NCBI RefSeq assembly: GCF_964204865.1
Contig: NC_135255.1
Span: 21,667,135 to 21,731,134 of the forward strand
DNA length: 64,000 nt
Direction of reading: 5' to 3'
Source: Styela clava
Lineage: Eukaryota; Chordata; Ascidiacea; Stolidobranchia; Styelidae
Shown here: piece by piece, positions 2,639 to 62,916 of the stretch
How the letters are laid out: each line of letters begins with the position of its first letter
Position numbering within the stretch: position 1 is the first letter of the stretch
The notes under the pieces: model-generated
What the model was told of the DNA's origin: nothing
What the model saw: only the letters and a program-made list of their open reading frames with translations
The model's database searches: none
Position numbers and translations under genes: made by a program

Positions 2639-2684
2639 AATTTTTATTCTTAATTAGAACAAATATCTAAAAATAACTGATATA
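2639..2684 (+). promoter_or_regulatory. PTPA 5' leader after a 3' splice acceptor
   Basis: A T-rich tract ending TTTTTCCAG (AG at 2637-2638) lies 46 nt upstream of the PTPA start codon. This looks like a 3' splice site just before the coding exon. It could accept a 5'-UTR exon or a spliced leader; no donor-bearing upstream exon is recognisable. Confidence 0.45.
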
Positions 2685-5107: not shown

Positions 5108-5135
5108 ATTTATAATTTAACATAAATCTTGAAAT

Positions 5136-22212: not shown

Positions 22213-22810
22213 CTATGCCATGTCTACGTAAATGTCATCAGTTTTCGCTTGCTCGTAAATCGCATCTCCCTGCTGCATTGTGTTCTGGTATAATGCTTCT
22301 GGCACTGTGTCTTCGTTTTCCACGGTTTGGTATTCGTCAGGTCCAGGCGATTGCAGATTTTCGTAAGTCGAATCTCTTTCCTGTTGGTTAGTCGACTGGA
22401 GGTTTTTTTCCGCCGTTTTAGCTATCGGTGATTGGATAGCAATAGGACTCGTTGGCCCTGATTGGCCAGTTTCCTTTGTAAGGTCAATGTAAAGATCGTC
22501 GTCATTGGTTGGATGAACGGAAAAGTTCACGTACTGGGGTTCAGACGTAACCGTACCGTTCTTTGCTTCCGTGTTCTGATAGGTTGCATTACCGGAAGCA
22601 TCTATATTTTCACCCTTCTTTGACCCCTTTCCATCTTTTTTGCCATCGTTTGACGTGGACGACGTTGATTGGGTCTTTGCCGAATATCTTGTTCCTGATT
22701 GGCTGCTACCTCTCTCATTTTTGATCTCATCGACTCGCACGTTCTTAGGAGTAACTCTAGCTTGGAATGCCTTCTGTGCCTCGTCCTGCGCCTTCTTACG
22801 GGACCTCAAT
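22213..22810 (-). CDS. Receptor last exon: cytoplasmic tail
   Basis: Acceptor TGTCTTACAG, then LRSRKKAQDEAQK to the stop after DDIYVDMA. A TTG ahead of the acceptor could be mistaken for a start; the frame instead continues from the membrane exon. The middle is Ser/Lys-rich and disordered; tyrosine motifs fill the second half at spacings of about 8-35 residues. Confidence 0.85.
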
Positions 22811-25800
22811 CTGTAAGACAAAAAGCAGTGATTACCCTACACTACATCCTCTATGGTAGGGATGGACAAATTACGGCCCGCGAGCGCTATTTCACGTAGA
22901 AACGCTACTGCCGATTTAAAGATATAACCTCGACATGGGCAAACTACAGCCCGCGGGCCAAATTCGGCCCGCTGGGTAATTCAATCTGGCCCGCCTGATG
23001 CTGCCACAACCAAACTAAAACCAAATTTCGATGTTTTAGTTAAAAAAATAGCTCAAGGAATTTGTTGGGATTGCGATTAAATTTAGTTTTGGCACGAGGC
23101 TTATTGTTTTACACTATTGCTTTTGTAACACTATTGTTTGTGAATATTGTTCAAAAAATGATACTTTTTACGGCACGCTCACATGGCCCGCCTGTATAGG
23201 TGGTCAAACTTTTCGACCCCTGGTACAGATACCCTGCCCACCCCAGATATAACCACTGAACAAACCATCGTACCTACTAATTCAATCAGCCCTGTACAGA
23301 AGTGATAGCGTCTAGGGCAGTGATTCTCAAACTGGGGTTTGAGAGCCGCATGCGGCTTATTGACTTGAAATTAAAATGCGGAAGTCTATAAGTTAGTCGA
23401 ATGGATTCTCCCGTGTTTATTTGCGTAGCGTTGACTATTCTACAAGATGCAATAGTGACGCAACAGTAAGCGTTTTCGCGACCACTCAGACACTTTTCAC
23501 TTGGAAAGATTTTAGACATGGCTTGCTTTCGTGGATTTTCAGTTTTTGTCGCATTTCCGAATATTATGTATAAATCAAACAACTCAATGATTATTTTATT
23601 TCTAGAGCATTTTAATTTTATTCCAATAATCGAAAATAGTCTTGGAATATCTGGCGATCAGCTCAAGCAGCTACTGCACCTTGCATCCTCCACGATTTCG
23701 ACCCGCTTTGACAAACTTATTAAAAATCAAAGTCAAATTAAATGGCTGTTAGTCTAAGGTGGGCAAAATCAAATCTTTTTTCGAATCGAACGATTTGAAT
23801 ATTTTTAACGAATACCGAATAGTCGAATAATGAATATTTTTTATACATAACAAGGATCCAGAACGTTGGAGGTCGATACTCCATTTGGAAAATAATAGAA
23901 ACATTGAAGAGTCAGCAATAAAGCGTTTTTTTACTGGTTAATTTCATCACAATCGCTAATTGTGTTTGTCACCGCGATCTTCGGCGGCGATATCCTAAAG
24001 TTGGTTTTGTATATTCCCGCCCTTTCTCGTTTTTTGCAAGAATAAGGGGTCACCGGATATCGAAGTTCCATATTTCTAGTATACCCTTGCGTTCACATCA
24101 GTGACAGCTGTTGAATACCTAGCAAATTCACGATTGCTTGAATCCTGAATGTTGATTTAAAATGGAGATTAAATAAATTGGCAATAAAGGCATTTTTAGG
24201 CCTTTGTGCCTAATAGAGGGTCAGACGCTGGTTATAATTCTGAACTATTTCCTTCAAGTTTTTTAACGTTTTTTTTTTCAACAAAACAACACCCCGATGG
24301 TTCAAAATGCTTGAAAATTTAACAATTGTGATCATTTTCGATGGTAATAGACGCAACACTTCGTGAACGAGCCAGTGTGCATTGTTACAACGAAATTGAT
24401 TGATTTTACGCTCTACTCTTGGCTCAACGGCCATGCATGGTCGAGTAAAATGTTTCATATTCGAAACATTACTTGGCCAAGAATGGAAGGGATCACTAAA
24501 GAGCTAATACAAAGTGCTTTAAAGGGGGTAAGACATGACATTTCTCATCTGGTTACAACTTAATGAGTGTTTTTCATAAAAGTAACTCATACCAGCTTTT
24601 GGAAAAACTTTTGGTCATTTTTAAATCCATGCTATTTATATAACTAAACGAGTTTTCTAACGACCTAAAATAGTCTTTTTCACAATGAAACGCCGAAAAG
24701 TCATTTTAACATTTATTTTTATCAACTTTATGTTCGGTAATGCAAGAAATGGCTAATGACATGTCACCAAGCATGCGGAGTTTAAAATCTGGGAAATTTA
24801 TTTCAAATACCTAGTCTGGTGCGGTGTAATCTGATATGGAATTGAAACGATACGTTAAGTGCAAAGATAAGCATATAACACCATAACGCAAAGACAACGA
24901 CTTTTCGAATTTGTCTTTTTTTTATAGAGAGCGCACAATTCACGATTAAGTTGGAGACGTGCGAGTTCGGTGTCCAAGCAGAGCGGTGCAGGTCACGTGG
25001 TACCGGATATTCGAATAGTAAAATGCCATTCAAATATTTTATTATTCGCCCTAGTTGTTACGTGTGTTGTTGTTACGATGACTTGGTATTTTAAATACGC
25101 GCTTAATGGTTTGTTGCTATTTTACCTTGCGTTGTTTGTATGCGGCTCTCCATAACTTTGAGATTTGAAATGCGGCTCTGGGACTAAAAAAGTTTGAGAA
25201 CCACTGGTCTAGGGTATCGCTCAGGAAGAGAATGTGCGAAGTACTTAAAGACAGATAAATAGTTCACTCACCCCCTTCTGTACGTCACAAAGCAGACTAG
25301 CAAGATAATGCCAACACAGAAAACGACAGACAACACTATTGCCAGAATCAGATAATTAAAATTTTGTGGTGTCTCGGTTGTCTCAGGAACAGAGGCTGAA
25401 AAAGTCAAATTAATATTATTTCAGTCTGTCATGTATTTGAATAGATTTAGCACAGGCATGGGCGAAGTACGGCCCGCGGGCCAAATTCGGCCCGTTGGGT
25501 AATTCAATCTGGCCCGCCTGATGCTGCCACAAACAAACTGAAATCAAATGTTGATGTTTAATTTAAAAATAGCTCAAGGAATTTGTTGAGATTGCGGTTA
25601 AATTTTGTTTTGGCACGAGGTATATTGTTTTCCACCTTTGCTTTGTAACACTGTAAATATTGTTCGAAAAATGTAACTTTTTACTTCACACTTACATGGC
25701 CCGCCAATCTAAGTGGGCAAAAATTTTGGCCCGCCAGTCTAGGTGGGCAAAATTTTTGACCCCTGGTTCAAAAAGCTTGCCCACCCCCGATGTAGCAGAA

Positions 25801-37075: not shown

Positions 37076-37697
37076 AAAACGGGTCAAATATGCAAGCAAA
37101 GTAAGTATATTTTGACTCCCAAATCAGCATAACGGCAACACATGATCTGGAAGTCAATCTACAAATAGGTAAATATAAGCAAAAGCAAGAGTTTGATAAA
37201 ATTAGCGAAAATATTGTGGATAATTTTAAAATAGAAAAGACATGGGTTTGCTCACTCATGAAAGAATGAATAATAGAAAAATAAAAAACACATTTATTCT
37301 CTAATTCCCATTTGTAAACTCTGACCACGCGAATCGTCTTATCCTTACTCAAAAGATTAACAACAACAAAAAAATACTAGTATAAGAAAAATACTGAAAA
37401 AAGCAACTGGTACTTAAGCAATTAGGATGGAATTACCCAGAAGAATAAGAATGAACTGATTTAAACGTTTGTGCATATAGTAGACGAAAATAATCAAATG
37501 TAATTAAATATTTAAACGCTATTTTATACAGTAGATGAAATAAAATATATATACATATGCATAATTATCATGGAATGATTTTAAAACAGATCAAAAACAA
37601 CGAGAGGAACCATTTTGAAAGAACTTGAAAACTAAAACTTTTTTTTTGAAGTCCTAATTCATACTAAATCATTGACAAATACAAACAAAATAAAGGG

Positions 37698-37912
37698 TAC
37701 TCCTGAAGTATGTGGACCAAAATGGCGGACACTAGAACGTAGTATGTGTACAAGGTTAGGATTAGGCCATAATCTTATTCCAATTTTACTTATTTTAGTT
37801 CTATTAAGAGTCCAGAGACTAGCTAAGTGACTCTGATAGTATTTGTACCTGGAAGTAAACATACTACGTTCCGGTGTCTGCCATCTTGGTTCACATACTT
37901 CGGGAGTACCAA
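37698..37912. mobile_element. Palindromic MITE, GTAGTATG family (long form)
   Basis: Left TACTCCTGAAGTATGTGGAC, right CACATACTTCGGGAGTACC; arms AAAATGGCGGACACTAGAACG and CGTTCCGGTGTCTGCCATCTTG. Best preserved long copy. Confidence 0.72.
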
Positions 37913-38060
37913 ATAAAGTTCGATTTAAACATGTAAGGACGAGTCAATCTGACGTATTTTGCAGTTCATTGAACATTATAATATTCAGTAAGTGGCCTGA
38001 TGAAATGCTTGATATATAATATTGAACGTGTAGTGTTCAACGTCTATTGTTGATCTCTTG

Positions 38061-38133
38061 TTAGTATTCAATTCCTTCTGCCTTCAATGCTCCATAAAAT
38101 TTAACCTCGTGGTCAGGATCCGGATATCCATTG
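38061..38133 (-). CDS. Kinase-DTC exon 7 (last): DTC C-terminus
   Basis: The acceptor ATTTCAG joins the split Asn codon, then NGYPDPDHEVKFYGALKAEG and IEY with stop TAA. The NGYPDP motif is a hallmark of the Deltex C-terminal domain. The paralogous exon is at 60932-60959. Confidence 0.92.
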
Positions 38134-41100
38134 CTGAAATAGATTAGATTGCATAAGAGATTTTGGCAGGTGCATACGATTCGATTTGTTTTCAACTGAA
38201 GAAATTCTGACATTCGATAATGGAATTCCTAAGGTCACAAATATTTGACTCCTTAGTACTAAGAAATGCTTAACTTAGCGACCCCTGTGTGAGTGAGATT
38301 GGAATGTGAGATCTTGATGTGTAAAAAGAATGTCAACTTTACTCGTAGGTAGAGATGAATGTCTAATTCAGTGGTTCCCAAACTTTTTTTAAAAATTCCA
38401 TGGCGAACCCCTTGCCATTTTTTAATGATTCACGGCCTTGTGCAATAAAACAAAATATTAAAATATCACAACAAAAAATCAATGCGTCGTATGAGGGAAA
38501 ACATTAAAACAAACAAAAGTATATGACAAAGTTTAATGGGATGGGTGCACTTGTTTCGTTTTTAAACAGCATTCAGAAGTGAACTGGAATAGCAAACTGC
38601 CTACTTTAACTCCCTCCTATACCAACAAACATGCAAAAGGCAGTGTCAGCTAACTTGTAATGACAGCAATTGAACTCTTTCTGTGATATCACAATGGGGC
38701 AGCGTGGTCAAAACCGAAAGTGAAAAATCAGTGTCTCTAGTGATAGCAATGCAGCAAAAGGTGACAAATGTGTATTTGCAAATCTAATCAGCACTTAATT
38801 TCTGTATTATCAAGCTATGAGCCATATGACAGATTTCTTTCGCGGATCCTCCGAAAGTGCTTCGCGCACCCTAAAAGATCCGCGGACCCCAGTTTGGGAA
38901 CCACTGGTCTAAATAATTAAATTTTTAGAATCTTCATTTTATTGATACTGTACCAAAAAAGGAAACATCAAAATCACTAATTAAAGCCATCCAGGGTGTA
39001 AATGAAGGTTTCGCCAAACAATAATGATACTGCAGATTAAAAAAAACAGTAATGTCTCCAAGTCTGATTGAACTGCGCACTGAACTGATCGTAGCAAAGG
39101 TGTAAAAACACTCCATAGCATATAAATTGATTCATTGCTATGGGCCATTGGTTAAATCGTTGAACTTAACTGAGTTGGCATCCCAAATTGCACGTCTTGG
39201 GTTCAAATCTCATGACCACCACCTCACCCTAGGTCAGGGGTCGGGAACCCATGGCTCGCGAGCAATATATGGCTCTTTTAGTGATGGCATATGGCTCCCA
39301 GAAAAATGGCATACGGCTCCAAAAGCGGGGGGATGAGTATTGTATGTTTCAACTTGTGCTGCATGTGAGCAGCCGTTCAAGGTCCGCAGCAACAACATGC
39401 AGCATCAGAAGTCCCATTAAATGTTTATTAACGTTGTAGGCCAGTGGTTCTTAAAGTATGGGTCGCGACCCAAACATGGGTCGCGGAAGGTTTAAAAATG
39501 GGTCGCGACAAGGTCGTCAATGCAAGGGCAACCTAAGAGGAGAATGAAGAATTTTCAGCTTTCCCAATGTTTCAATTTAGCTTCTAAACTCTGGTATTTA
39601 AAAACAATGAAATATAAAATTTCATTCACGGAAAGAACTGTCTTGAGCTCATTGTTACATCACAATTCTGATATGCCAGTCACGTGTATTATTTTTATGG
39701 TATCGGTAACCAGGCACGTCGCTAGTCGTTGTGTTGACCGCGTGGAATGTCGTCTTAGTGGATTAAAATAACCAAAAATGGGTGTCTTTTTGGTAATGTA
39801 AATTGTAATAGACGACGCAATGAAAAAGCTCGCTTCTCGACATTAGATTATTCAATATCTAAAGAAAATGTGACTTCATCTCGAGGCACCATTTACCGCG
39901 AACGAAGCAGTGTGTGCACATTTGATGAGTAAAAAGTTGTATATTGCGAGAGATACCGAAGGCCAGCTAGGATGTCGTGTTTGCGACGGACAGCGGACGC
40001 CTCATCTGCTACAATTCGCGACAAGGCACTTGTGCGAGCGAGGATATTTGGCACTGACGGTTATCAAAACTAAGCTCGCAATCGCCTCGATACCCGTGAC
40101 AACTTGCGTATTGCGTTAAGTAAAATAGAGCTGTGTATTGAAGATATAATGAAAAGGAAATTTCAGTTTCATCAATCTCACTGAGTCAATGGACTGTTTC
40201 TAATAAATAGTTAAATAGTTGTCTGTATTTGAGTCAAACTGTACTAACATTAAAAACACATTTTGCGTTATTTAGGATTGGGTCGCGAGTATTCATAAAA
40301 CTCAGATTTGGGTCGCGCTCGAAAAAGTTTAAGAACCACTGTTGTAGGCTATATGTGTTGACTTTTGAGTAAAATTTCAGGGCTGATTAAGTGAAGAAAT
40401 GCTATATGGCTCACACGGAAATGCAGTTGAAAATATGTACTTTTCATGGCTCTCTTGACCAAAAAGGTTCCCGACCCCTGCCCTAGGTGTAGAAGTATTA
40501 GGTAGGCAATATTGAACCGCAAAAAAAACTAGTTCTTCCAAATAATAGCAGCTCATTATATATTGCTACATATCAGGGGAAGCTTAAACAGGGCTTTGTC
40601 CACAGCAAAATGTGTGGATAAGCGGCGTATATATAAAAACTCAAACATCTCGCTTATAAATAGAATTTTAAAAATAAGCAGTGAAACCATAATTTATGTC
40701 AAGTTGGATGGCTCAATGAAAAGTTGACATCAGAAAAGCAAAAGATTTAGTCGTCACTGGAATACGGATCAAATAATTACACAATTGAACATTCCCAATT
40801 CCAATGACAGGGAGGACAAGAAGAAACCTAGTAAACAACAGCTGGTCGTTGGTTACAGTCATGCTGTAGAAAATTTGGTCCTGAATACCATTTGTTGATT
40901 TTGATTGTCACTAAGAAACCACCCTCAGTAACATACACCTCAATATTTCGGCAACATCATGACAAATCATGGTCAATATTTATTAAAAATAGAAAGAACG
41001 CTTCCTGATCATCTCAGACCAATCAACTGAAATTTGATGGAAGTAGTGGATGCTTGTATAGAGCCTTGTTCAGAGTGAAAGGTGTATGATATCAGTGGTT

Positions 41101-44100
41101 GAGTGGTTGCAAATGTCACAAGCTGGATGGAAGTTTATGGGATCAAAATCGCAACCCAAAGATGCCTTTCTTCGATTTATATATAAGCGTTTGCAAAACA
41201 GTGTTTGACACAAATCATAACTTTGTGCGAAAGTCCAATTTTCTAACTTTGCATGGAAGGTCAGTTTGGAAAATAAATATTGATTTGGTTAATTTTAATT
41301 CACACTACTATTTTAAATCTTAGCTTTTGTTTGAACTAAATTTTCAATACATCCGTACGTGATATAATAAGTTGAGGTCCCAGTCAATCCTTGTAGGAAT
41401 TTTACAGATTTTAGATTGTTCAACTAAAGAACTTACTTATCTGGACCTCCACGTTTGTTTGTCTTATGGGGAATTTTATCATTCCATATTATCTCTCCTC
41501 TGTTGCTTCCAGTCATCTGAATCTTGAAGAGTAATCCTGCATTGAATGCTTTCTCGAGCAACACTTTAAGGTACAGGTTTGCAGGCAAATATTCAGTGAA
41601 TTCCTTCACCTCATATGTAACACCCTGCAAAAATAAACATACCGGTAATAATCATTCAACTTCCGTCTCTGAAAATTTGTTAAAACTGATAAGAACACTT
41701 GGGCATATCCTATGAACACTGTTCTGAAATACATTGAAAAATTCAACAAAAGCAGACAGTTGCATGAGCATGATTTGTAAATTTGTTCATGGGGTCATTT
41801 CACACTATCATCCCAAAAAGGCACAAAGCAAACAGCCATATATCGAAAGCTAGCACTGTCTATCAAATTATTGGAGCAAGCCAAACAGTCTAACCAGGAT
41901 AGGACTTCTTTCACATTTATCCCAAGGGAGAGAAAATCCCATATGTCAGCATAATCATGTGGCGAACCACGACCTCTAATGAAATAGGTAGGAGTTTATG
42001 ATAAGTTAGGTAGGCAATGCAACCAGAAAGATTTCAGTACTACAATAAATAGTAGTGCCTTGCGGATCAGTGGCTGCTCATACATAGCCCTGTTTGGAAT
42101 AAAAGACATGACAAAAGTGTCATAGAACTTCATTTGGAAAAGTTGTCATTTTAGGCGTTTGGTATTCTATAGTCGGATAAAATATCAGATAAATTATGAT
42201 CTTTGCACCGATAATTGCCAAAATGGAATAAATTACTATTTTAAATAAATTCTGAAATAATATTTTCCAATATTGAATATATATTTTAAACTGGGCCAAG
42301 TTAAACAGGAGTCTGTGATACTCAGTGGAGATATGTGAAAATTCAGTAATGCAGAATAACTGGGATAATCATTGCTTCGATTGTTAAAGATAAACATGGA
42401 TTTTAAATAACGCCAATTTTTTTCAATCGGTAAATGTTAAAACTTAGAAGACAAATTTAAAAACCAAACCCTAAAATCAAGATTCAAGCTCTATTTACTA
42501 TAAACAATCATGAATATACTCGTTTCATTTCAAAGATCAGCACTGGTAGAGGTAAATTTTGCAAGGAGCCATTAAACCTGGGGTCGGCAACCTAAGGCGG
42601 AGTAATATAATCTGGCCCGCGACTCTTCACTGAATTATAGTAACAAAACAGCTGTTCTTTATGTTCAACTTTATGTTCTTTTACTATTCTTTATGTAACA
42701 GAATTTATTGTGAGACATGTGTAGACTAAATTATATTATAACCTAACAAATATATAATTGCAAAAGGTTCATGGCGCCGAAAATATTCAAATGAAATTTT
42801 TTGAGATTTAATGCAATGAGGAAATAAATCTATATTCTATTCGAGATATGTAATACTGCTTAATTATCCGCTGGGGTTTTAACTTTCTAAAATATGTGCA
42901 GCCCACCAGTGGCGCACCACGACCTCTAATGAAATAGGAAGGAGTTTATGATAAGTTAGGTAGGCAATGCAACCAGGCCGTTTTCAACTTGGGGGGGGAG
43001 GGGGGGTCCGACCGGAATTTACACAGTGCAACCACGACGTAAGTCGCAACGCCACTAGGTGTCGCCCCGCTGAAACACGATAAATTGCTGTGGTTAAAAG
43101 GGAAACGCCATCGATTAAATCCCAGCCTTTCGCTTACCTTGCCCTCGTTCATTAACGGCGCTTCGCTATGTCTTGCACCTCGTGGGTAGCAAAACGCCGT
43201 TCATTACATTTCAGCGAATTGCTAACGAAAAGCTGTTAATTATTTTCAACGTTTCCCTCGCTTTGCGCCTCGTGGATAGTGAAACACGACTTGAATAAAT
43301 TCCAGTGTTTCCCTCGTGCCGCGCCTCGCTCGTTGGGTGAATTCGTCAAGACTAAAAACAAAATGCACTTCTTGCGAATGGACCTTTTCCCGACCCTGAC
43401 CCCAGAAAAATTCTAAACTAAACTGAAGCTCACCGGAAGACATAATGACAAATAAAATAATTGATTTACAACTAATTTTTGAAAACACAACTAAAAACTG
43501 ACAAATTTAATGCAGGGATGTCCAAATCGAATTTAAATTCAAATATCGCAAACTTCAAATACTGTTTTTTCGTGTTTACAATAATCCCGAATATGGCGCA
43601 CATATCCTATCACGTCGTCCATGTGTGGTTCGGCAATATATTACAGCTGACATGAAAGAATTTCGATAAACGCCGACTTGAAGAACTTATAAGACTTCGA
43701 GGACGTTTTTAATTGAAAATATTTTCTTATCATGTATTTTAACTTAGTCGAGATGGTTTAGGCGTCCTTGGCAAATTGTGTCTTAATTAGTTGTTTTCAT
43801 CCTCAGTTTCGATAGTGACCGAACATAACAAGAAATTTTTTTATTTCTTGTAATATAGCGCGTATAAAAAAGCTCTTAAATAGTATTTAATATCTATCGC
43901 GGATTTCGTCGGCATCCGGCGTTGATGACAACATCGTTCAGTTTAAGTTAGCGGTATTCATTTACAAACAAAAATACATAACAGCCGAAATATTCAAATC
44001 AGTGCAGAGTTCAAAAATAAAACACGTTTTATGGATGGTCTCAATATGCACATAGAAAGAAGAAAGGACAGAGAAATAATGACTAAAAACTAAGAACGGT

Positions 44101-47100
44101 ATGGTATGTTTGTGTACTTTTGTTTACCATCGTCATCATAATCAAATTAGTTAAACCCGATTCCCAAATTTACGTCCGCCAATAATGGAGAATAAAGATG
44201 GAAAAACGTGTTTGACTTTTTGAGTCGGCGTTGATTTAAATTTTTCATGTTATGTGTTATAATTTTTTGATTATAAATCAATACCTCCAACCTAAAATGA
44301 ACGATATTGTTATCAACGACGTTGGGATAACGATAAAATCTCCGATAGAAACCAAATAATATTTAGAAGCTATTTTATAGATTTATAGAAATTAAAAAAT
44401 TTCCCGTTAAGTTCGATCACTATCGAAACTGAGGATGAAAACAATTACGGTAATTAGGGCAGGATTTGCTTTTAAGTTTATTGCCGAGGCGCACAACATA
44501 TCTTGACTAAATTGAAATATACGATAACAAATGTAAAAAAATTTCAACCAAAACGTCCTCGACGTCTTATAAGCACTTCAAGTCGGAGTTTATTGCAATA
44601 TCTTTCACGAGGACTGTTAGCTATTGCCGTGCCACACATGGCTGCTTTCGATTGCAATAAAAAATGAAAAAAATGTGAAATGTTTTTAAATCAGAATGTG
44701 GACGGGGGCGGTAGGATGTGTACGGCGTTTTCGGTTTTCGGCCTTCCATATGTAGAAAATCTTAGATTAATGGAAGCAATATTTTTCCGAAAATAATTTT
44801 CGTATCCAGATTTTCAGAGTTTCTACTGCATTATTATAACATGAAGACGGGCTGCGTTACATTGCGTCAAAATGATGAAGCACGAGAGTATTTGTCACAA
44901 GAGAGAGAGAGATAGCATTATGCTATTGTCGCTTTCAATTCGCATCGACAGCGCACGATTTCTACTTTTTTGAGGTAACATATCTCATTTTCGAATACAA
45001 ACATATACGCGGGGATAGCGATTATTACGTAACTAACAGCAAAAAGGTATGATTGAAGTCAGGCGGTGTTAAATTACGTCGAGGTGATAAAGCACTGGAA
45101 AAAAGTAGTTTTCACCGGATTGTTATGACCGTGGAACGACGTTGTTTGAACGTAGAACAATAATAAAAAAAACGAATTTGAAACGGGGGACACGACCCCG
45201 TAACCCCCCTGCTGGTTGCGCCACTGCGGCCCACCAATGACTTGCAACCCCTAATTTTGGTCCGCAGTAGAGATGTACCGATGTATCGGTATCGGCAATA
45301 TCGGCCATTTTTTCGGTATCGGCCATGTATCGGTTAGATTAAGGCTGATATTTCCGATATATTTACTTTTTGATATGGTTCAGAATGTTTCAAAAGATAA
45401 GTTGGAATACTACTTTTTAATTTATTTTTTGTCTGGAGAGATCGCGAGCCATGAGCCATACATGTCCCCACCCCCGCGAGAGAATAGGATTCACGTGTTT
45501 TTAGCTATTTATCAGCCAAACTAGCTCAACTAATTTGGCTATTTTCACTGTCAAATTTTTATATTGACATTTCAAATATTACATAGTAATTATGAAGAAA
45601 TATATCAACACAGCACATAACAAAAAGCAACCAGGCGCCCAGTTTTAAATCATACAGTGGAATTGGGGTCATTATTAACGGCACATGGACTTTTGGCAGG
45701 GGTATAAATTCTGACTGTTTGTTGTCAAGTACGAGTGTCATTTAGTCCGTCGACATCGATATACTAAATTCCGACACAACCATCCCTCTACGCAGGTATT
45801 GATTTCAATTTTGTTTAACTACACAATTTCTTTATAGATATATTGACATGACCGCCTAGCCCTAGAGTTAGACTATCTCAAAATATATGATAGCAATTGT
45901 AAAATATTATAAAATAGTAAAGTAAAAAAACATCCCCGACGGTTATAGGTAGGCCTACTTTTGTCGGTGCTGATTGATATTCTTTCATGTTGGCTTTGAC
46001 TTATTGCGTCGACGATTACGATTAGTCACGGAATAAAATATTTGTAAAATGATTTTAATTTGAACGTAGGACGGCGGCGCTAGAATGTGTGGGTGATATT
46101 CGATATTCTTTAAAACACGAATAACGATATTCGAAGGTCGCGATATTAACATTAAATTCAAATTGGACATCCTGGCTTATGAGTTTTCTAATTAAACACC
46201 GAGATTACTAGTGTTACTGTACAATGTATATTAATTAGGTCAAGCATATGGATACCAAACATTAATTTCATATTATGTGATATATCTTTTTTCTTCGATC
46301 TGAAATAATGTGTACTATGAACAACGCTCAAAGACCATTGTTTTAACTCGTCTGCCCTACACAGCACACCTAATTAAGTTATAATTACATAGTATCGGTA
46401 TCGGCATATCGGCCTTTTTGTAGTATCGGCGTATCGGTATCGGCGTTTTTAGCTGGTATCGGATCGGTATCGGCGACAAAAGTGGTATCGGTACATCTCT
46501 AGTCCGCAGGCGACAAAAGGTTGCCGACCCCTGCATTAAACCAACTTGAAAAGTAGCTTTCTGAAAATATAGAAAATATTTCTAAAAGATCCAAGTACTA
46601 AGACATTGGAATTAGTTGGAATTGGAATTAAAGTTGGATCCGAATTCAAAGGTCGCAAATTCAAGTTCCATACCCATTGCCTTATACAGTATGTAATAAC
46701 TTGAGTAGGCAATGCTGAAACGAAAAATTGTGATCCATCCAAAATATAGTAGCTTCTTATGCATTAGCGGTTGCTTGCACAGAGCCATGTTTGGAGTGAA
46801 CAAAGTAATAACGAAAGTGTAATTAGAATTTAATTGCTATCTGGGTACCAGAAAAATTGTATTTGGAAAGTTTGATGTTAATCATGGAATCAATATAAAT
46901 TAATACAAAAAAAATCTGAGTTCCAGTAAATACATTCAATATTCAACCAACTGAATTCATTACATGACTCACATTCAGACTTCCAGCAGGAAATGAGTAG
47001 GTGATGACAAAAGCGCTATTCAGACCAATCAAGCCTTCATATCCTGGCAGTGATTCATGCAACTCTTCCACTGACATTCTTCCACCAGATGGTTGTTGTT

Positions 47101-50100
47101 TGATAATTCTTGGACCAGATGAAGTAGCTTGACTTGAAGACTGAGATTCTGAAAATTGAACATCATTTAGTTAGAGAGTTGAGCATAGGATTCAAATCAT
47201 ATGTAAAATAAAACGATATCATAACCCCCAATAATTGAGAAATCTAATGCTCTTACAACTAAAGAGTCATTATCAAGTTAGGTCATAACTTTAACTGGGG
47301 TTGACAATGCCTTGGTAATGTAGATTTGCACATCTAGGATGGCTGCCTTTCTGCAGAAACTCCCTTATTGAAAGCACTTAGTATCAACATACAATTCCAG
47401 GGCGGGTAAGCAAATATATCTCCATCCAATATTATGATATTTATATTCTGAGATGTGCCAAAATGTTTGCTGTGGTAATCTTTTGATTTTAGTCTATGTT
47501 TTTTTTGCAGAAAGCTCATTACTTTCAACCCAAAACTATGCAATATAATTTGTATTCGATACAATGCTATTTGCCTTTGAAATGAGTCTATACGCTCCTT
47601 GCTGCCGGTTTCAAGTCGATTTGACCATTTTATCAAGTTGGGCCCCACAGCTTGAAGTGGCCCAACGCTAGTAATCAGTCCCTATGCCCTGTTTAAACAA
47701 CTGCAAAAAAACTTTACATTTTTTAATGTCTTCATTGCATTGAGGATTTATTCAACGATGCTAAATACTGTTGCATCATGTGAAAGAAGCTTTTCAAAGC
47801 TGAAAATAATTAAAGTATACTTGAGGTCTGCGGTCTCACAAGAAAGATCTAACAAATTGCCAATGCTTTTTATAGAAAGCGAAATTGCTAAAGCTATTGA
47901 CTTTGAAAATATTTTGAATGATTTTACCAATAAAAAGGCTATAAAAGTCTTTTTTGAAAAGAGTATATTATAATGTAATTGCCTATTTTGGCTTTCTTGA
48001 TGTTAGAGGTAAAACAATAACAGCTTTCACATTACCTTAAATTTATTTTATAGCAAGTGTTTGATGTCTATTTTTTGGAAGTTTGTATGTATGTTATGTT
48101 ACGAAATAAAAACACCCATAAATTTTACTATTGAGAGAAGGAGCCCCACCATAAGATTTCTAATTGAGCCCCGCAGTTCTGCTGCGTACCCTCTCAAAAC
48201 GCTTGTCAATTTGAACCAAAAACCGTGTGCTATATCTATTAGAATAGAAATGCTTTTAGTAAAAAAATTATTAGCGCAATGGGTGGTTGGGTCCCAATTT
48301 GCAAAAAACTTTGTCAAAGTCATTTTTCTGATATATACCGTAAATAACAAGGTAATATTAGATTCAACAGTACGTAAACTCTGTGGTCCGCATGCTTTGA
48401 ACCAATGAAAAGGCACAGGGCCAACATTGATATGAAGCGTTCTCTGCTACATACTTTAGTCTATAAAATCTGTAGCCTATTATTTTTGTATTTTATAATG
48501 CAGGCAACATATTATACAGATTCATTTGTCACGCATGAACAGACAGAAGAAAAATATCATCATCAGAATAATGTCTTACCAACCAAACAATGCTTATGCA
48601 TTCCCCCCTGTCGAGCTATGAGTTTAACAATCGGGCTTTTGTATATAATTAAATCATGTATTTGAAGGCCACTCAACATTTGCAAGATTTTTGAACCAAA
48701 GCTTGGCAATTTTCTTAAGTGTTATGCTGAAATTTTGAGTTGGGTGCCATTCCCCCAATAATGAAATTGGCCACTTTTAATATTTCATTTTAAGTTTTTT
48801 TTGTAAACAACAAAGTTTGTGCCACTGGAATTTGTTAAATTTTATTTTTTTAATGACTCGGAAACCCTAATATTAATTTTACAGTAATAAGCCTGCATTA
48901 AGTTACTTACAATACAAGCATTATAAAGCTATCAAAACAAAACTATCAATGAAAAACAGGAAAATAAATTCTGTTACCTTTTATCTTTTGCTTCAATTCC
49001 TTATTTTCTTTCTTTGTTTGTTCCATTTCTCGTGATCGTTGACACAGCAGCATCTCTAGTTGTTGTTGGAGTTTCTGCATTTTCTTCTCTGCTTCATCTT
49101 TCTGTCGTTTCAGTTTTTCCACTGTCTGAGGTTGCTTGAAGCCTATTAAATACATAAGCGATACAATCATGTGACAAGCTATAATAGGACATATTGGAAA
49201 GCTGTTATTCTGCTACAGAGGCAAGAAGCAGTTTTATTTAATCAGTTTCAGAATTTAAAGTGAAATTGGCTCAAATATCTTGATTTGCTATCAAGTTCAA
49301 ACACAACCCCAGCATGCCCTTCAAAAACCCATCAACAGCTGCTAGTATAAGGATGAGCTATGGACCATTGTATAAAAACGTATTCTCTCAATATTTTATA
49401 ATTCAATCATTTCCTATCCCAGGAAATTCAAATGGATGACTGAGACCTTATAAAAAATTTCTTTCTTCCATTCATATAGCACTATTCAATACAGCAAATA
49501 CAGAAGACTTACATAAGTTAGGAAATGGGCAAGCCAGTTCCCCACCAAAGTATTTATGCTGTTGGATTTGATCCAAACTTGGTCGCTCTTTTGGAATTCG
49601 ACGAAGCATCCAGCCGACTAAATCCCTCATCTCACTTTCAAGTTTGCTCAGGTCACATCCTTGATTTTGCATTATAAGGTAACTCCATCCAACAGGGTTA
49701 TCACCAAATGGGTGACTCCCATCAGTCTCAATGAAATGTATCACAAGTGCCAGTGAGAATACGTCGGCTTGTTTGGATATGACATTGTCACTGTATGTCT
49801 CTGGGGCTCTCCAACCATCTGTGCCAATGCCAATATTGCTCGCTTTGGTGACAGAATGACCGGGTTTCATTTCTTTGCTCAATCCAAAATCTATCACTTT
49901 CAATTGCGTTCCATCTTCTGATATCAAGATATTATCTGGTTTTAAATCACGATGTATGACATTATTCCTATGGATGTGGGCAATGCCATTTACAAGTTGT
50001 TGGATGAGTATCTGCTTGATTCTTTTGGTTTGTTTTGAACCCTTCATGAAGTTAGTCAAATTGTCGGGGCCACATAGTTCCATGGCAATGAAAATATGCT

Positions 50101-51399
50101 TGACTGGGCCAAGGTGATAAATGCCAGAATCTATAATGTTAGCAATGTTCTGGTGATGGCTGATTTTGACCAGAATTCTTGCTTCCCTCTCATTTTCCTT
50201 GCTATACTTCAAGGATTTCACGGCAATATCACCTTGACCAGACTTTCCATAAATCTTCACACCCTTATAAACATTTCCAAGCTTGGAAATGGACTCGTAA
50301 TGAAGCATGTAGAGTGAATCTGTCAAACGAATTGAACCTGAAATAAAAAATATTAAAGTTCCTGAGATATTGCACTATACCTAATACCATAATGGTAATC
50401 ACATTTCTTTTAACAGTTTGAGCAATACAGCTAACTATGCCATGGGTTAAAATCCCATGCTCACCACCTGACCCAGGTATTAGAGCAGGCAATGGAAAAC
50501 ATGTAAGATAACGGTCCTTCCAAAGCAGTAGCTCCTTCACATCAGTGGCTACTTATAAGACCTTGTTCAGAGTGTGAACATTTCATGAAAAATCATGACT
50601 ACAATATACAGTAAGTCACAAATATATAAAAAATGATCATTCACAAAAAGAATTCATGTAACAACAATCAATGTTTAATTTCACATTTGCCATAGTCTTA
50701 TTAAATATTATGTTTCAACATTTTATAATGAAGAATATTCATTTCTAACAGTAAGTTACCTAAATGCGCCAGGTTCTACGACAACTAGTACATACTCACA
50801 TATATGTAATATCAATTAATCAAAATGGACATCTTACCACATAAACAATTGTTTGTACGAGAATACTTAACCTGTGATTAAGTTAGACATTGTAAATCCG
50901 AAGACTTGAAATATTATCTTGTATTTCAGTACAAACCTTTGACTGGGTTAGTTCCCTCTGGAATTGCGAAAGAAGCACCTTCCCCAGATGAAGACTCTTC
51001 AGATTCTCTGTTTTTATTGCCCTTTCCGTATGAAATGCCAGAACTTTCCGTAATATAGCAGTCTGTATTTATATTATCTCCTGAATAAAATACAATGAGG
51101 CATTAATCTTCCAGCAGGGTGGATATTTAATATATAAATGAAATGATTCACTGACCTTGCTTTTGATTAATAATCACAGTCTTAGCTATCACAGCTCCAT
51201 GCTTTCGGGATTCTTTCATCAGGTAATCCAGACCTCGAGCAAGATTTAGATCTAAAGCTTGACTTGTGCCAGGTAAGCTCAGTGCTTGTGCAGCATTTTG
51301 AGATGTTGTGGGATCTTCTCTATCATGAGAAGTTGAAGGTTGGTCTGGTGAATCTGAATCAGAGTCATCTAATTCAATTATGTCCAGGACTTTATCCAT
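38061..51399 (-). CDS. Ser/Thr kinase - coiled coil - Deltex C-terminal domain fusion protein (whole gene)
   Basis: Minus-strand join of 51156-51399, 50937-51080, 49513-50337, 48978-49142, 46973-47148, 41437-41624 and 38061-38133: 1815 nt, 604 residues plus stop. All GT-AG junctions keep frame. Order: acidic Ser/Asp N-terminus (1-129); kinase domain about 139-390, nearest in style to IRE1 (GTDGWRAPE activation end) with VAIK-type K170, alpha-C E181, HRD D260, N265, DFG D279 and APE E309; coiled coil about 405-460; DTC domain about 475-604 with LPGYEG, FVITYSFPAGSLN, EYLPANLY, IIWNDKIPHKT and NGYPDPD. DTC is the ADP-ribose-binding C-terminal domain of Deltex E3 ligases, but no RING precedes it and no KEN RNase domain follows the kinase. 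The glycine loop is degenerate (SISKLGNVYKG). Likely a cytosolic or nuclear kinase reading ADP-ribosylation; that role is inference. Introns 5 and 6 are large and transposon-filled. Confidence 0.9.
38369..38906. mobile_element. hAT MITE, TSD GTCTAATT, in kinase-DTC intron 6
   Basis: Starts CAGTGGTTCCCAAACTTTTT and ends CCCAGTTTGGGAACCACTG. Flanks GTCTAATT and GTCTAAAT (7 of 8). The tandem paralogue lacks it at the matching place (about 61195). Confidence 0.82.
39235..40480. mobile_element. hAT element inserted in SINE-B, perfect TSD CCCTAGGT
   Basis: Starts CAGGGGTCGGGAACCC and ends GGTTCCCGACCCCTG; flanks 39227-39234 and 40481-40488 are both CCCTAGGT. It is the same family as 1895-2438. It carries the nested element 39442-40341. 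Confidence 0.9.
39442..40341 (+). mobile_element. hAT element nested inside another hAT, perfect TSD TTGTAGGC
   Basis: Starts CAGTGGTTCTTAAAGTATGG and ends AAAAGTTTAAGAACCACTG; both flanks are TTGTAGGC (39434-39441, 40342-40349). The interior at about 40010-40150 encodes a decayed hAT transposase C-terminus: FATRHLCERGYLALTVIKTK, then after a frameshift RLDTRDNLRIALSKI, the dimerisation-region pattern. Confidence 0.9.
41437..41624 (-). CDS. Kinase-DTC exon 6: central DTC domain
   Basis: Encodes GVTYEVKEFTEYLPANLY, KVLLEKAFNAGLLFKIQM and EIIWNDKIPHKTNKRGGPD. WND-x-x-HKT corresponds to WNE-x-HHKT of Deltex proteins; the first His of the HH pair is Pro here. The acceptor is TTTTTGCAG and the donor GTAAGT. 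The paralogous exon at 62729-62916 has the same length. Confidence 0.93.
42907..45226. mobile_element. Nested hAT-like element, CAGTGGCGCA ends, TSD CRGCCCAC
   Basis: Starts CAGTGGCGCACCACG and ends TGGTTGCGCCACTG. Flanks CAGCCCAC and CGGCCCAC (7 of 8). The interior holds a large foldback element: about 43505-43850 is inversely repeated at about 44395-44660 (GACTTGAAG-ACTTATAAGACTTCGAGGACG; TTTTCATCCTCAGTTTCGATAGTG). Confidence 0.8.
45268..46501. mobile_element. Nested hAT-like element, TAGAGATG ends, perfect TSD GTCCGCAG
   Basis: Starts TAGAGATGTACCGATGTATCGG and ends GGTACATCTCTA, with GTATCGGTATCGGC repeats at both ends. Both flanks GTCCGCAG (45260-45267, 46502-46509). Its middle has a decayed foldback piece related to 42907-45226 (TTGGACATCCTGG near 46165). 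Confidence 0.88.
46655..46800 (+). repeat. SINE-B 3' fragment
   Basis: GAGTAGGCAATGCTGAAACG and GCTTCTTATGCATTAGCGG..GAGCCATGTTTGGAGTGAAC match the body of SINE-B copies at 61431 and 50400. Head missing. Confidence 0.5.
46973..47148 (-). CDS. Kinase-DTC exon 5: start of DTC domain
   Basis: Encodes ESQSSSQATSSGPRIIKQQ, PSGGRMSVEELHESLPGYEG and LNSAFVITYSFPAGSLN. QPxG, LPGYE and YxFPxG are Deltex C-terminal landmarks. The acceptor is ATTTTCAG; the donor GTGAGT starts at 46972. Confidence 0.92.
47640..48190 (+). mobile_element. hAT transposase relic (C-terminal dimerisation region)
   Basis: The ORF at 47740-47973 reads TVASCERSFSKLKIIKVYLR and QERSNKLPMLFIESEIAKAI, the conserved end of hAT transposases (also seen in domesticated ZMYM-type proteins). 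Flanking GGGCCCCAC/GAGCCCCGC motifs match those around the copy at 52811-55936. No 5' part or zinc finger is present, so it is a relic, inside the kinase-DTC intron 4 on the opposite strand. Confidence 0.75.
48978..49142 (-). CDS. Kinase-DTC exon 4: coiled coil
   Basis: Encodes QPQTVEKLKRQKDEAEKKMQ and LQQQLEMLLCQRSREMEQTK to ELKQKIK, a strongly charged heptad-type helix that could dimerise the kinase. This is where a RING would be in a classic Deltex protein; there are no zinc-ligand pairs. Confidence 0.9.
49513..50337 (-). CDS. Kinase-DTC exon 3: protein kinase domain
   Basis: A single 825-nt exon holds the whole kinase fold: GDIAVKSLKYSKENEREARI, VIHRDLKPDNILI, KVIDFGLSKEM, GIGTDGWRAPETYSD, KQADVFSLALVIHFIETDG, and the C-lobe arginine PKERPSLDQI. 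All catalytic residues are present, so activity is expected despite the weak glycine loop. The acceptor is TATTTCAG; the donor GTAAGT starts at 49512. Confidence 0.95.
50400..50580 (+). repeat. SINE-B copy in kinase-DTC intron 2
   Basis: GGTTAAAATCCCATGCTCACC is a decayed B box, followed by GCAGGCAATGGAAAACATG and GCTCCTTCACATCAGTGGCTAC...CCTTGTTCAGAGTGTGAAC, the family body. Confidence 0.55.
50937..51080 (-). CDS. Kinase-DTC exon 2: linker
   Basis: Encodes DNINTDCYITESSGISYGKG, NKNRESEESSSGEGASF and AIPEGTNPVK. The acceptor is TTATTCAG; the donor is GTTTGT, weaker than the others. Disordered linker before the kinase. Confidence 0.8.
51156..51399 (-). CDS. Kinase-DTC exon 1: acidic N-terminus
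   Basis: Starts at ATG 51399 (MDKVLDIIELDDSDSDSPDQ). An in-frame stop lies just upstream, so a longer start is excluded. IIELDDSDSDS resembles a SUMO-interacting motif (hydrophobic core followed by acidic/Ser residues), which would fit DNA-damage or PML-type recruitment but is inference. The donor GTCAGT starts at 51155. Confidence 0.82.
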
Positions 51400-51439
51400 T
51401 TTATTCTCAGATTGAAATAGTTTTGGCTCCAATTAAGAA
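51400..51439 (-). promoter_or_regulatory. Kinase-DTC 5' leader after a 3' splice-like site
   Basis: TTATCTACAG ends 40 nt before the ATG, as for the three plus-strand genes. Could be a trans-splice or 5'-UTR acceptor. Confidence 0.35.
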
Positions 51440-52464
51440 CTGTAGATAACTGCTCGACTGCTCAACAGTAAACACAGAAATATTTCAGTATTCATTGAAA
51501 CAGGTCAGATATTTGTTTCTAACTTAACTAAACGTTTTGTTTGTTTTCCTGATTTTATATTCCATTCCTTTTTTTATTTATCAACTATTTCATCCCTGCA
51601 AAACTGGTTACTGTATTATGTCGGTACTTAAGATATTTTTTCTTAACCATATTCAGATATTTCAGTATTTCAACTAAAACCGTATTCAAGTTTGGTATAA
51701 GATCTTACACAAGTTACAAATATTTTAATGAAAAGCCAAATAAGAATAATAAATATATATAATTGCGATGTCTTCAATTCGGGTATTTCTCACGTAATGA
51801 TCGAATTAAAGCAAAGGTACCGTATGTAAAGCTAAGTCGTAACTGAAAGCAGCCATTACGAATGACTTCTCCTTTCCAAATCTGCTGCCAGCGGTGTTGT
51901 TAAATCGAGAGTCTACAAATTGACTAAATCCGGTAATCGTTTGTCCGCAAAATGCGACATCAATAAACACAAAGCTGACAATTTAACACATTTCGCAAGA
52001 TTTTCATATATTACGTCATAGGTGACAAATGAGTTACGAGTAATCTTTATGACGTAATTATATCATATCAAAGATTGGTTTGTTCGTGTGCGAAGCTCAA
52101 CATCGATTCAGATATCAAGTCGCGTGTCATATAGGCCAGATTGGTTAATTTTATATATGCGCTGTTGCTCAATTTAAGAAAGAGTTTTACGTGAATATTG
52201 CGATATGTGCTTGCCGTTGAATCTATTCTAAACAACATGATGTCGGACTAATTGCCATTGGGATTACTTTAATTTTGACGTATGAGTGCACAGAATGCCG
52301 GAGCGATGAAAGCAGGTCAGTATACTATAGGATGAAATATTCCCATCATATGGTCGTAGCTGATCGTTGTGAAGAGTTGCAAGCCACCCAACAGTTACCG
52401 TATTTGAACCACCCCAAAAATTGAGGAGCGCAACAAATAATTGACTCATAATTAACTGAAGGCA
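51440..52464. other. Upstream region of the kinase-DTC gene
   Basis: No coding sequence seen. The stretch 52005-52065 has several TGACG/ACGTCAT-type pieces (TTACGTCATAG, ATGACGTAAT). Promoter position not resolved. Confidence 0.3.
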
Positions 52465-60360: not shown

Positions 60361-60931
60361 AAGATCGGGCGGTAAAATGAGCATATACGGTATATACATA
60401 TATGCATAAATATCATGGAGTTGATCAACAATAAAAGGATGAAACAGATAAAAACGATGAAAAATTGAGAAAATATAAATTGTTGGTTTTGAAAATTCTG
60501 ACTAATTAACGTTGATTAACAGTATAGAGTTTGATTTAAAAACGAGAGGTCGAGTCAAATCCGACTGATATTGCAGTTCATCAAACATTATAATATGTAA
60601 GTAAGTGGCATAATGAAATGCTTGATAATGACAATATAAAATTAATGGAGGGGTTCTAATATTACATTGTCCATTGTTGATTTTGTATTGTTAGTATTCA
60701 ATTTCTACACAACTTTCACAAGATAGCTATACGTAGTTCCGGTAGGTCTAGATGAATTTTCCACCCCGTCCATTTATAAGTGGCTTGATGAAATGCTCGA
60801 TAATGATACTACGAAATCATTGGATGAGTTTTAATATAGAATTGTCTGGATAGTGTTGAACGTTCATTGTTGATCATCTATTGAATTCCTGTTGCCTTTA
60901 ATTTCGCCTCCAATGCATCACAAAGTTTATT

Positions 60932-60959
60932 TTAATGGCCCCGATCAGGATATCCATTG
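60932..60959 (-). pseudogene. Kinase-DTC paralogue, last exon with premature stop
   Basis: The acceptor TATTTCAG is followed by NGYPDRGH and an in-frame TAA (60932-60934). Beyond the stop the same frame stays open (NKLCDALEAKLKATGIQ, stop TAG), matching the normal DTC C-terminus, so this is a nonsense mutation rather than random sequence. The product would lose about 17 residues; whether it is functional is unknown. Confidence 0.78.
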
Positions 60960-61430
60960 CTGAAATAGATCAGATTGCATGAGAGATAATGGTAGTTGCA
61001 TATGAGTCTGATTTCAATTAACTGTAAAAAATAAAATGTTCGATAAAAGAACACTGAAAGTCACAAGTATTTGACTCCTTAGTACTAAGAAATGCTTAAC
61101 TTAGCAATACCTGTGTGAGTGAGATTTGAATGTAAGATTTAGATGTGTAAAAATAATGCCAAGTCAACTTTACTCGTAGGTAACGATGAATGTCCAAACA
61201 GGTAATTTTTTCAGGTATTTGATTTCATTGATACTGTACTAAAATATGAAACATCAAAATCACTAACTAAGCCCAACAACTTATCCATGGTGCAAGGGAA
61301 GGCTTCGTCGAACATTGATCATTTTAGAGTTTTGAAACCGAGTAATGCCCCAAAGTCTTATTGTCTGCTTGAACAGAGCACTGATCAAACCGAAGTTGTA
61401 AAACCACCAAATAAAATATATATTCATGAT

Positions 61431-61650
61431 GCGCGATGGCATAATGGTTGAAGCGTTATACTTAATTGGGTTGGCATCACAAACTGCACATCTTTGGTTC
61501 AAATCCAATGGCCATCACCCTACCCAAAACATTGGGAGGCAATGCCGAACCAAAAATAAACTAGTTCTGCCAAATATTATTAGCTCCTTAAATATTGCTA
61601 CATATCAGTAGAAGCTTAAGCAGGGCTTTGTTCACAGCAAAATGTGTGGA
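61431..61650 (+). mobile_element. SINE-B, tRNA-derived, intact copy
   Basis: A-box-like TGGCATAATGG at 61437-61447 and B box GGTTCAAATCC at 61496-61506, then the body GGGAGGCAATGCCGAACC and GCTCCTTAAATATTGCTAC ... AGGGCTTTGTTCACAG. It is the uninterrupted counterpart of 39137-40625. Confidence 0.75.
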
Positions 61651-62344
61651 TAAGCGTCGTATATATAAAAACTCAAAGATCTCATTTATAATAGAATTTT
61701 AAGAATAAGCAGTGTAAGTGTAACTATAATTTATATGTTGGATGCCCAATGAAACATTGACAACAGAGAAGCAGAAAATTTAGTCGTTACTGGAATACGG
61801 ATCAAATAGTTACAAAATTGGGCAACCATAATTCCAATGACAGATGTGACAACAGAGAAACCTAGTAAACAACAGCTGGTCGTTGAACCTGGTTACAATC
61901 ACGTTGCAGACAATTCAAGCCTAAATATCATAATGGTTGATTCTGATTGTCACTAAGAAATTACCCTCAGTCACATACACCCTAACATTTTGCAACAGCA
62001 TGACAAATCATGGTCAATATTTATCAGGAATAGAAATAATGCTTCCTGGCCATCCCTCACCCATCAACTGGAATTTGATGGACGCGATGGTTTCTTATAT
62101 ATAGCTTTGTTCATAGTTAACGGTGTATAATAGATGTGTATAAACAAATTTAAATGTTGGTTGAAATCAAGAGAGGAAAGTAGAGAACGTTGTACTTGAT
62201 TTTACCTCGGACAAGATATCTGTGGTTGAGTGGTTACAAATGTCACAAGCTGGATGGATGGTTATGGGATCAAAATCGCAACCCAAAGATGCCTTTTTTT
62301 GATTTATAAATTAAAGTTTGAAAAACAGTGGTTTATTTTAAAGT

Positions 62345-62573
62345 ACTCGTGTAGTATGTGAACCAAGATGGCGGACATCGGAACACAGTATGTGTATCAG
62401 GTTGGGGTTAGGCCATAATTTCAGGTACAAATACTACAGGAGTCACTTGGCTGGTCCCCGAACTCGTAATCGAACTAAAACAAGGAAAATTGGAATAAAA
62501 TTATGGCATAACCCTAACCTGGTACATATACTATGTTCAGGTGTACGCCATCTTGTTGCACATACTACGGAGC
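62345..62573. mobile_element. Palindromic MITE, GTAGTATG family, present only in this duplication copy
   Basis: Left GTACTCGTGTAGTATGTGAAC, right TTGCACATACTACGGAGC; AAGATGGCGGACATCGGAAC arm and TGTACGCCATCTTG. Absent at the matching place in the other copy (about 41215-41285). Confidence 0.7.
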
Positions 62574-62728
62574 TGCGCCCATTTTAATTTTTGCAATTCA
62601 CATTTAAAATCTCAACTTTTGTTGGAACTAAATTTTTAATACATCTGTCATTGATATAACGTAGTTGAGGCCCCAGTCAATCCTCATAACAATTGCGCAT
62701 ATTTTAGAATATTTAATCAGAAACTTAC

Positions 62729-62916
62729 TTATCTGGACCTCCAAGTTTGTTAGTTTTATGAGGAAATTCATCATTCCATATTATCTCTCCTCTGCTGCTT
62801 CCAATTATCTGAATCTTGAAGAGCAATCCTGTATTGAATGCTTTCCGGAGCAAGTTCCTGATGTAGAAGTCTGCAGGCAAATATTCAGTGAACTTCTTTG
62901 CCTCATATGAAACACC
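62729..62916 (-). CDS. Kinase-DTC paralogue, central DTC exon (partial gene)
   Basis: A 188-nt exon identical in length and phase to 41437-41624: GVSYEAKKFTEYLPADFY, RNLLRKAFNTGLLFKIQI, EIIWNDEFPHKTNKLGGPD. The acceptor TTTTTGCAG and donor GTAAGT are intact. The kinase part would lie beyond 64000, so only the 3' part of this gene is in the window. Confidence 0.88.

Follow-up and report, generated by a model that had tools for sequence, protein, structure and literature searches.

The ascidian Styela clava carries, on the minus strand of a 64,000-nucleotide stretch of contig NC_135255.1 (positions 21,667,135 to 21,731,134 of the forward strand; the whole stretch is called the window here), a gene that joins a protein kinase to a Deltex C-terminal domain (DTC). 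This kinase-DTC gene is real. The DTC is familiar from E3 ligases, in which it forms the half that binds ADP-ribose. Judging from the sequence comparisons below, we think that in the family of this gene the DTC is probably a diversified target-recognition cassette placed behind kinase, BTB-BACK and ZU5-like heads, and that the window gene encodes a probably active kinase. The cassette of the family appears to have lost the ADP-ribose and catalytic residues of Deltex, together with the RING domain, and to have kept the DTC fold.

Structure of the kinase-DTC gene

The gene was described in a preliminary description as seven minus-strand exons. When recomputed, the exons had GT-AG borders throughout and closing phases, as claimed, and 1815 nt encoded 604 residues and a stop. 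An automatic NCBI gene model, LOC120333272 (uncharacterized, Styela clava), has the same length of 604 aa and is 100% identical across residues 128-405 and 460-604, the parts used as queries. A chance chain of open frames was ruled out by the closed splicing, the Pfam domains and the matching model. The exons, in window positions, are as follows.

51156..51399, minus strand: exon 1, start codon and leader; the leader is common to group-A kinase paralogues (see below) and the ZU5-like protein P0010
50937..51080, minus strand: exon 2, leader, phase 1-1 symmetric
49513..50337, minus strand: exon 3, entire kinase domain, phase 1-1 symmetric
48978..49142, minus strand: exon 4, linker, helical and probably coiled-coil, phase 1-1 symmetric
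46973..47148, minus strand: exon 5, opens the DTC cassette and holds the hypervariable patch following LPGY
41437..41624, minus strand: exon 6, central part of the DTC, with the hypervariable patch following EYLP; Pro570 at the place of DTX2 His582
38061..38133, minus strand: exon 7, end of the DTC and stop; Asn582 and Ala596 at the places of DTX2 His594 and Glu608; variable helix

Pfam profiles found both of the domains that had been named for the product, the kinase at residues 150-393 (E 2.3e-42) and the DTC at residues 477-602 (E 3e-15). The catalytic residues K170, D260, N265 and D279 are all present, as described earlier, and are invariant in the 17 kinase-DTC proteins that were aligned; the glycine loop is irregular by eye. 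From these residues, the window kinase is probably active. Its description as IRE1-like holds insofar as IRE1 is the closest solved kinase by sequence in the PDB (E 9.4e-25), but TNIK scores only 3 bits lower, MAP4K4 likewise lies within a few bits of IRE1, and a Pfam scan up to E 1 found no KEN ribonuclease in the protein. The closest solved DTC is that of DTX3L (E 2e-12).

The absence of a RING was confirmed. The Pfam scan found neither a RING nor a Cullin-binding BTB domain in the protein, and a pattern scan of the three minus-strand frames of 37500-52400, which span the gap between 47148 and 48978, found no RING-type Cys/His array, which excludes a missed RING exon. The coiled coil proposed for the linker corresponds to a stretch rich in Lys, Glu and Gln (residues 412-458) that is modelled by AlphaFold as a single helix, but this region of the model is of low confidence. 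The kinase is also modelled poorly (10-residue means of the predicted local distance difference test, pLDDT, of about 23-55), and the model is usable in the DTC only (63-88).

The start of the leader (window 51340-51399, minus strand) reads VLDIIELDDSDSDSPD and is alike in most of the aligned group-A kinase leaders. It resembles a SUMO-interacting motif.

Replacement of the ADP-ribose pocket residues

In the parts of the literature covered, His582 and Glu608 of DTX2 are described as strictly conserved and catalytic (PMC7615817), His594 of DTX2 (Tyr719 in DTX3L) is described as important in the ADP-ribose pocket (PMC11460948), and the triple mutant S568A/H582A/H594A is used as a loss of function (PMC12402299). 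The window protein has Pro570, Asn582 and Ala596 in place of His582, His594 and Glu608, respectively. We compared these places among 58 family DTCs, taken from 74 proteins after four had been missed by the anchor pattern (P0004, P0066, P0071, P0086) and another 12 had been dropped with the three exons incomplete by pattern; at least P0004, P0023, P0064 and P0086 among the dropped rows look complete by eye, and the set includes three duplicates and, for some loci, both an older and a newer annotation. The place of His582 was occupied by Pro in 54, Ser in 3 and Leu in 1; that of His594 by Asn in 55, and by His, Asp and Phe in 1 each; and that of Glu608 by Ala in 55, Val in 2 and Ile in 1 (by plain offset, Ala in 54, Val in 2, Ile in 1 and Pro in 1). 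Thus, none of the 58 parsed DTCs had His at the first place or Glu at the last. Ser568 of DTX2 is not alignable to the family DTCs.

It had been proposed that the DTC is used here as an ADP-ribose reader. This idea is weakened because the published binding and catalytic places are changed in the window protein and are near fixed in their changed state in the family; for a role in DNA-damage signalling, also suggested earlier, our analysis found no support. We therefore regard as unlikely a remodelled pocket in which the DTC has retained binding of ADP-ribose, or of a related nucleotide or nucleic acid, and through which it brings the kinase to ADP-ribosylated targets. Further, Deltex-like loci of the same genome (L001 and L003) keep His582 and Glu608, and the variation and selection described below sit in surface patches.

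Among these Deltex-like loci, L003/L004 (C1) keep all three residues, and L001 (C19) keeps His582 and Glu608 and has Phe in place of His594; by eye, it also has RING-type cysteines. L002 (C1:11085797-11089018), which has a RING end by eye, carries Pro and Thr at the His582 and Glu608 places, as does L005 (C5:16222565-16225762, at 16.2 Mb). These last two loci read IPHKT and RQTL where the conserved His and Glu would stand. By their sequences, L002 and L005 may be intermediate forms that link ordinary Deltex with the expanded family. From these few loci we infer an order in which an intact Deltex would have given rise to a RING protein with lost residues and then to the RING-less, expanded form.

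Hypervariable patches and diversifying selection

Three patches of the DTC surface are hypervariable among the 58 DTCs: two that follow LPGY and EYLP, respectively, and a third formed by one face of the last helix. The columns beyond them are almost invariant. Column entropy was highest at DTX2 places 492, 494, 501-504, 506 and 541-550; the peaks of the last helix (599, 602, 603, 606, 607 and 610) are found mainly in group A and mostly on one face. Further, the DTC was less similar than the head in 36/36 pairs of kinase genes and 90/91 pairs of BTB genes of group A, and in 10/10 and 119/120 such pairs, respectively, of group B.

We estimated the ratio of nonsynonymous to synonymous substitution rates (dN/dS) by pairwise counting (Nei-Gojobori) and not by a tree-based codon model. 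For the sister cluster B, 35 places on C5 yielded 31 clean, distinct copies of exon 6; four places (L025/L044, L032, retrieved short, L042 and L043) gave no clean copy. In these 31 copies, the patch of 11 codons after EYLP had a dN/dS of 5.11 (bootstrap 3.9-8.1), whereas the rest of the exon had 0.71 (0.57-0.94), at a similar dS (0.079 in the patch and 0.092 in the rest). The result was much the same in the 23 ungapped copies (5.54 versus 0.71) and in 11 disjoint nearest pairs (4.55, Fisher p 0.004, versus 0.63). In sliding windows, the ratio exceeded 1 between about codons 6 and 44, and it again reached 1.4-1.9 near codons 46-63; the first of these runs indicates that the selected patch is wider than 11 codons. 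Diversifying selection is thus shown for cluster B. Plain loss of constraint as the full story was ruled out by the patch, where dN greatly exceeds dS, and by the remainder of the exon, which is below 1. In cluster A, which contains the window gene, the BTB-BACK and ZU5 heads are constrained (dN/dS 0.25 in four copies and 0.33 in three, respectively).

A family with several heads

Three database searches gave 66 Styela protein clusters with a Pfam DTC, of which, counted from the Pfam columns, 18 also have a kinase, 40 have BTB and/or BACK, and 8 have neither. For 42 of the 66, an NCBI source with a contig is given: the contig of 24.30 Mb holds 18, that of 24.90 Mb holds 23, and 1 lies on another. 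Three of the eight clusters with neither kinase nor BTB/BACK have a ZU5-like part (P0010, P0017 and P0024). The ZU5 label rests on Pfam matches below the curated cut-off (P0010, E 0.053; P0017, E 0.033; P0024 was assigned by similarity), since the AlphaFold model of P0017 is uninformative (mean pLDDT 34.8). A Kelch propeller is the usual occupant of the place after BTB-BACK, and BTB-BACK proteins are usually CUL3 adaptors. The BTB-BACK sister P0003 has clear BTB (E 9.3e-26) and BACK (E 5.3e-22) domains, and the Pfam scan found no Kelch match in it. The DTC tree separates two groups by starred branches, group A, with the window gene, and group B.

All matches came from Styela clava in two protein searches (54/54 and 63/63), and in the kinase search PF18102 occurred in Styela rows only, among the best 120 of 4490 matches. 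Candidates had to share 5-letter words in these searches, so that relatives in other ascidians could be missed. Related Styela clava kinases are fused to a Macro domain, Kelch repeats and LRR-like repeats (P0085, P0083, P0078), and the wider kinase family seems to gather varied C-terminal recognition domains. Unlike the window protein, a more distant Styela kinase (P0092) does have the KEN ribonuclease (PF06479).

Searching the window and the next 200 kb upstream with family modules, we mapped ten DTC units within 264 kb, arranged head to tail and all on the minus strand. Their heads comprise one kinase, four full BTB-BACK, one BTB fragment and three ZU5-like parts. The kinase-DTC gene is the final unit, the one nearest the low-numbered end of the window. 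In unit 4, exon 6 is broken, and the NCBI model P0016 appears to splice the first exons of the ZU5 head of unit 4 to the DTC of unit 3, skipping the broken DTC; the first exon of P0016 is 100% identical at unit 4 and 98% at unit 8. Both a ZU5 and a BTB-BACK head lie upstream of unit 7. The unit next to the kinase-DTC gene also lies partly in the window (60881-62916, minus strand), with its exon 5 and a short BTB remnant beyond the window edge:

62729..62916, minus strand: exon 6 of the next DTC unit, open
60881..60959, minus strand: exon 7 of that unit, interrupted by an in-frame stop

Pairing of heads and DTC cassettes

Exons 2, 3 and 4 each begin and end in phase 1, the phase in which the DTC cassette (exons 5-7) is also entered, and a linker, ESQSSSQ, lies at the join of head and DTC in many kinase and BTB proteins. 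Heads that can be exchanged on a portable tail would be expected to show such an anatomy of symmetric exons, shared linker and array. On the tree of 58 DTCs, head type was scattered and required 21 changes, against a mean of 20.7 in shuffled labels (as low in 141/200 shuffles). Further, P0013 and P0012, one a kinase and the other a BTB-BACK protein, have letter-identical DTCs. The distances of exons 5, 6 and 7 correlated little with one another (0.19, 0.21 and 0.10 in group A; 0.05, 0.13 and -0.10 in group B), although this comparison is weakened by a within-exon control in B that was likewise low (0.20, p 0.119). An identical exon next to a clearly different one (<90%) was found in 0, 0, 1 and 1 of 1485 pairs in four tests.

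Recognition, decay or self-recognition

Several results speak against the reading of the DTC as a diversified target-recognition cassette. In eight of the ten cluster A copies of exon 6, dN/dS was 0.67 (0.41-1.13) in the patch and 0.45 in the rest; the patch dS of 1.39 suggests misaligned indels, which perhaps inflate dS. Seven of the ten copies of exon 5 gave 1.74 (0.74-3.11) in the patch and 1.00 in the rest, and the two copies of exon 6 in the window gave 0.48, with 0.63 in the patch. For cluster A, diversifying selection is thus suggested by the data and not established. In unit 7, exon 5 is not intact by pattern and exon 6 is absent from all of the database proteins compared, for which reason the unit may be dead. 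With stars on 4 of its 52 inner branches, the DTC tree is weak, and the BTB label by itself shows slight clustering on it (as low in 35/500 shuffles). Head and DTC distances correlate among BTB genes (r 0.60, p 0.038 in A; r 0.44, p 0.011 in B), and re-pairing is accordingly not free. Finally, gamete recognition or selfish-gene conflict could leave the same mark of selection.

We consider it distinctly unlikely that the genes are relaxed or decaying tandem duplicates, many of them near-pseudogenes, in which the DTC is losing constraint and has no recognition role. The broken copies, namely the upstream unit with a stop in exon 7 and unit 4 with its broken exon 6, fit this explanation, as do the cluster A ratios at or below 1. 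However, in the cluster B patch dN greatly exceeds dS, whereas the remainder of that exon has a ratio below 1 at similar dS; the columns outside the patches are almost invariant, and the BTB-BACK and ZU5 heads are constrained. A variable DTC that serves gamete or self/non-self recognition, or a selfish-gene conflict, instead of defence against pathogens seems more improbable still. Diversifying selection and tandem arrays fit it equally well, and ascidians have multi-allelic self-sterility and allorecognition loci, according to the portion of the literature covered; however, the nature of the heads (kinase, BTB-BACK and coiled coil) points to a location inside the cell.

In the recognition-cassette explanation, which we favour, a three-exon DTC cassette entered in phase 1 would stand behind interchangeable heads, namely a kinase with a helical linker, BTB-BACK, or a ZU5-like part. 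The DTC would have become a protein-binding scaffold with a varied rim, directing its head to a target, and different copies would bind different protein targets, perhaps from pathogens or parasites. The head would set the outcome, phosphorylation for the window gene and ubiquitylation for the BTB-BACK forms, in which CUL3 would replace the lost RING. The window kinase may be brought to, or switched on by, the target of its DTC, perhaps pairing via the helical linker. We infer protein binding by the DTC, action of the kinase on the bound target or signalling from it, and an immune use; the immune use is a possibility raised by analogy with the nematode repertoires discussed below. The earlier proposal that the DTC targets the kinase thus survives in part, as the DTC also follows BTB-BACK at the place of Kelch and has fast-evolving patches, but not in the form of ADP-ribose reading. 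A stronger version, in which arrays of hypervariable, ADP-ribose-blind DTC cassettes could be spliced to alternative heads (kinase, CUL3 adaptor or ZU5), even across adjacent units, in an undescribed intracellular combinatorial system by which a single animal would mark numerous foreign or foreign-like proteins for phosphorylation or destruction, is tentative and, in our view, rather doubtful.

Comparison with known systems

The window protein has its C-terminal DTC in common with the Deltex E3 ligases DTX1, DTX2 and DTX3L (RING-DTC; 6y5p, 6y3j, 3pg6). Unlike these, it has no RING, has His582, His594 and Glu608 replaced, carries a kinase ahead of the DTC and belongs to an expanded, hypervariable family. 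IRE1 has a related kinase domain, and some paralogues of the window gene are named IRE1-like in databases, but the window protein has a DTC instead of the KEN ribonuclease. Kelch-like BTB-BACK proteins resemble the Styela sister genes, such as P0003, in having BTB and BACK, but the sisters have a DTC at the place of the propeller, and the window gene has no BTB.

The nearest precedent is found in the F-box and MATH-BTB adaptors of C. elegans, repertoires that are likewise expanded and, as in cluster B, selected in the recognition part. The sections covered of one paper report strong positive selection in their substrate-binding but not their Cullin-binding parts and propose that they are detectors of foreign proteins (PMC4334554). 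In contrast to these repertoires, the variable part in Styela is a former ADP-ribose-binding DTC, common to three head types, and the window gene lacks BTB.

It had been stated that no protein with this arrangement has been described. This holds for the literature covered, since no account of a kinase-DTC or BTB-DTC family was found in the open-access papers covered, among which 'Styela clava' and 'Deltex' co-occur in a single one, once each. It does not hold for databases, as the protein is an entry there and one of many. The sequence itself is therefore already available, and it is the family, the array and their evolution that appear to be undescribed. What we see by sequence is consistent with a recognition repertoire on a new scaffold, one common to several heads. 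The DTC looks like a scaffold made into a variable binding surface, as are Ig, LRR and MATH, and passed between signalling heads. In the literature covered, no other recognition repertoire is based on a Deltex domain, so that the Styela family, which is that of a chordate, would be the first. The family also offers natural DTC domains in which the fold appears to be kept and the catalytic residues lost.

Other features of the window

The remaining frames identified in the window are as follows.

22213-22836, minus strand: 207-aa frame with many tyrosine motifs (YENL, YQTV, YVDM), which resembles a signalling receptor's tail; Pfam gave no match at E 0.01
10050-12325, minus strand: two frames that overlap, perhaps derived from a mobile element; one contains DUF7869 (E 2.9e-11)
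8357-8740, plus strand: CRIPT-like exon (E 2.1e-12)
5133-5693, plus strand: TFIIIC_sub6 frame (E 1.8e-06)
2658-3779, plus strand: open frame of 374 aa for PTPA, the PP2A activator (Pfam E 1.9e-119)

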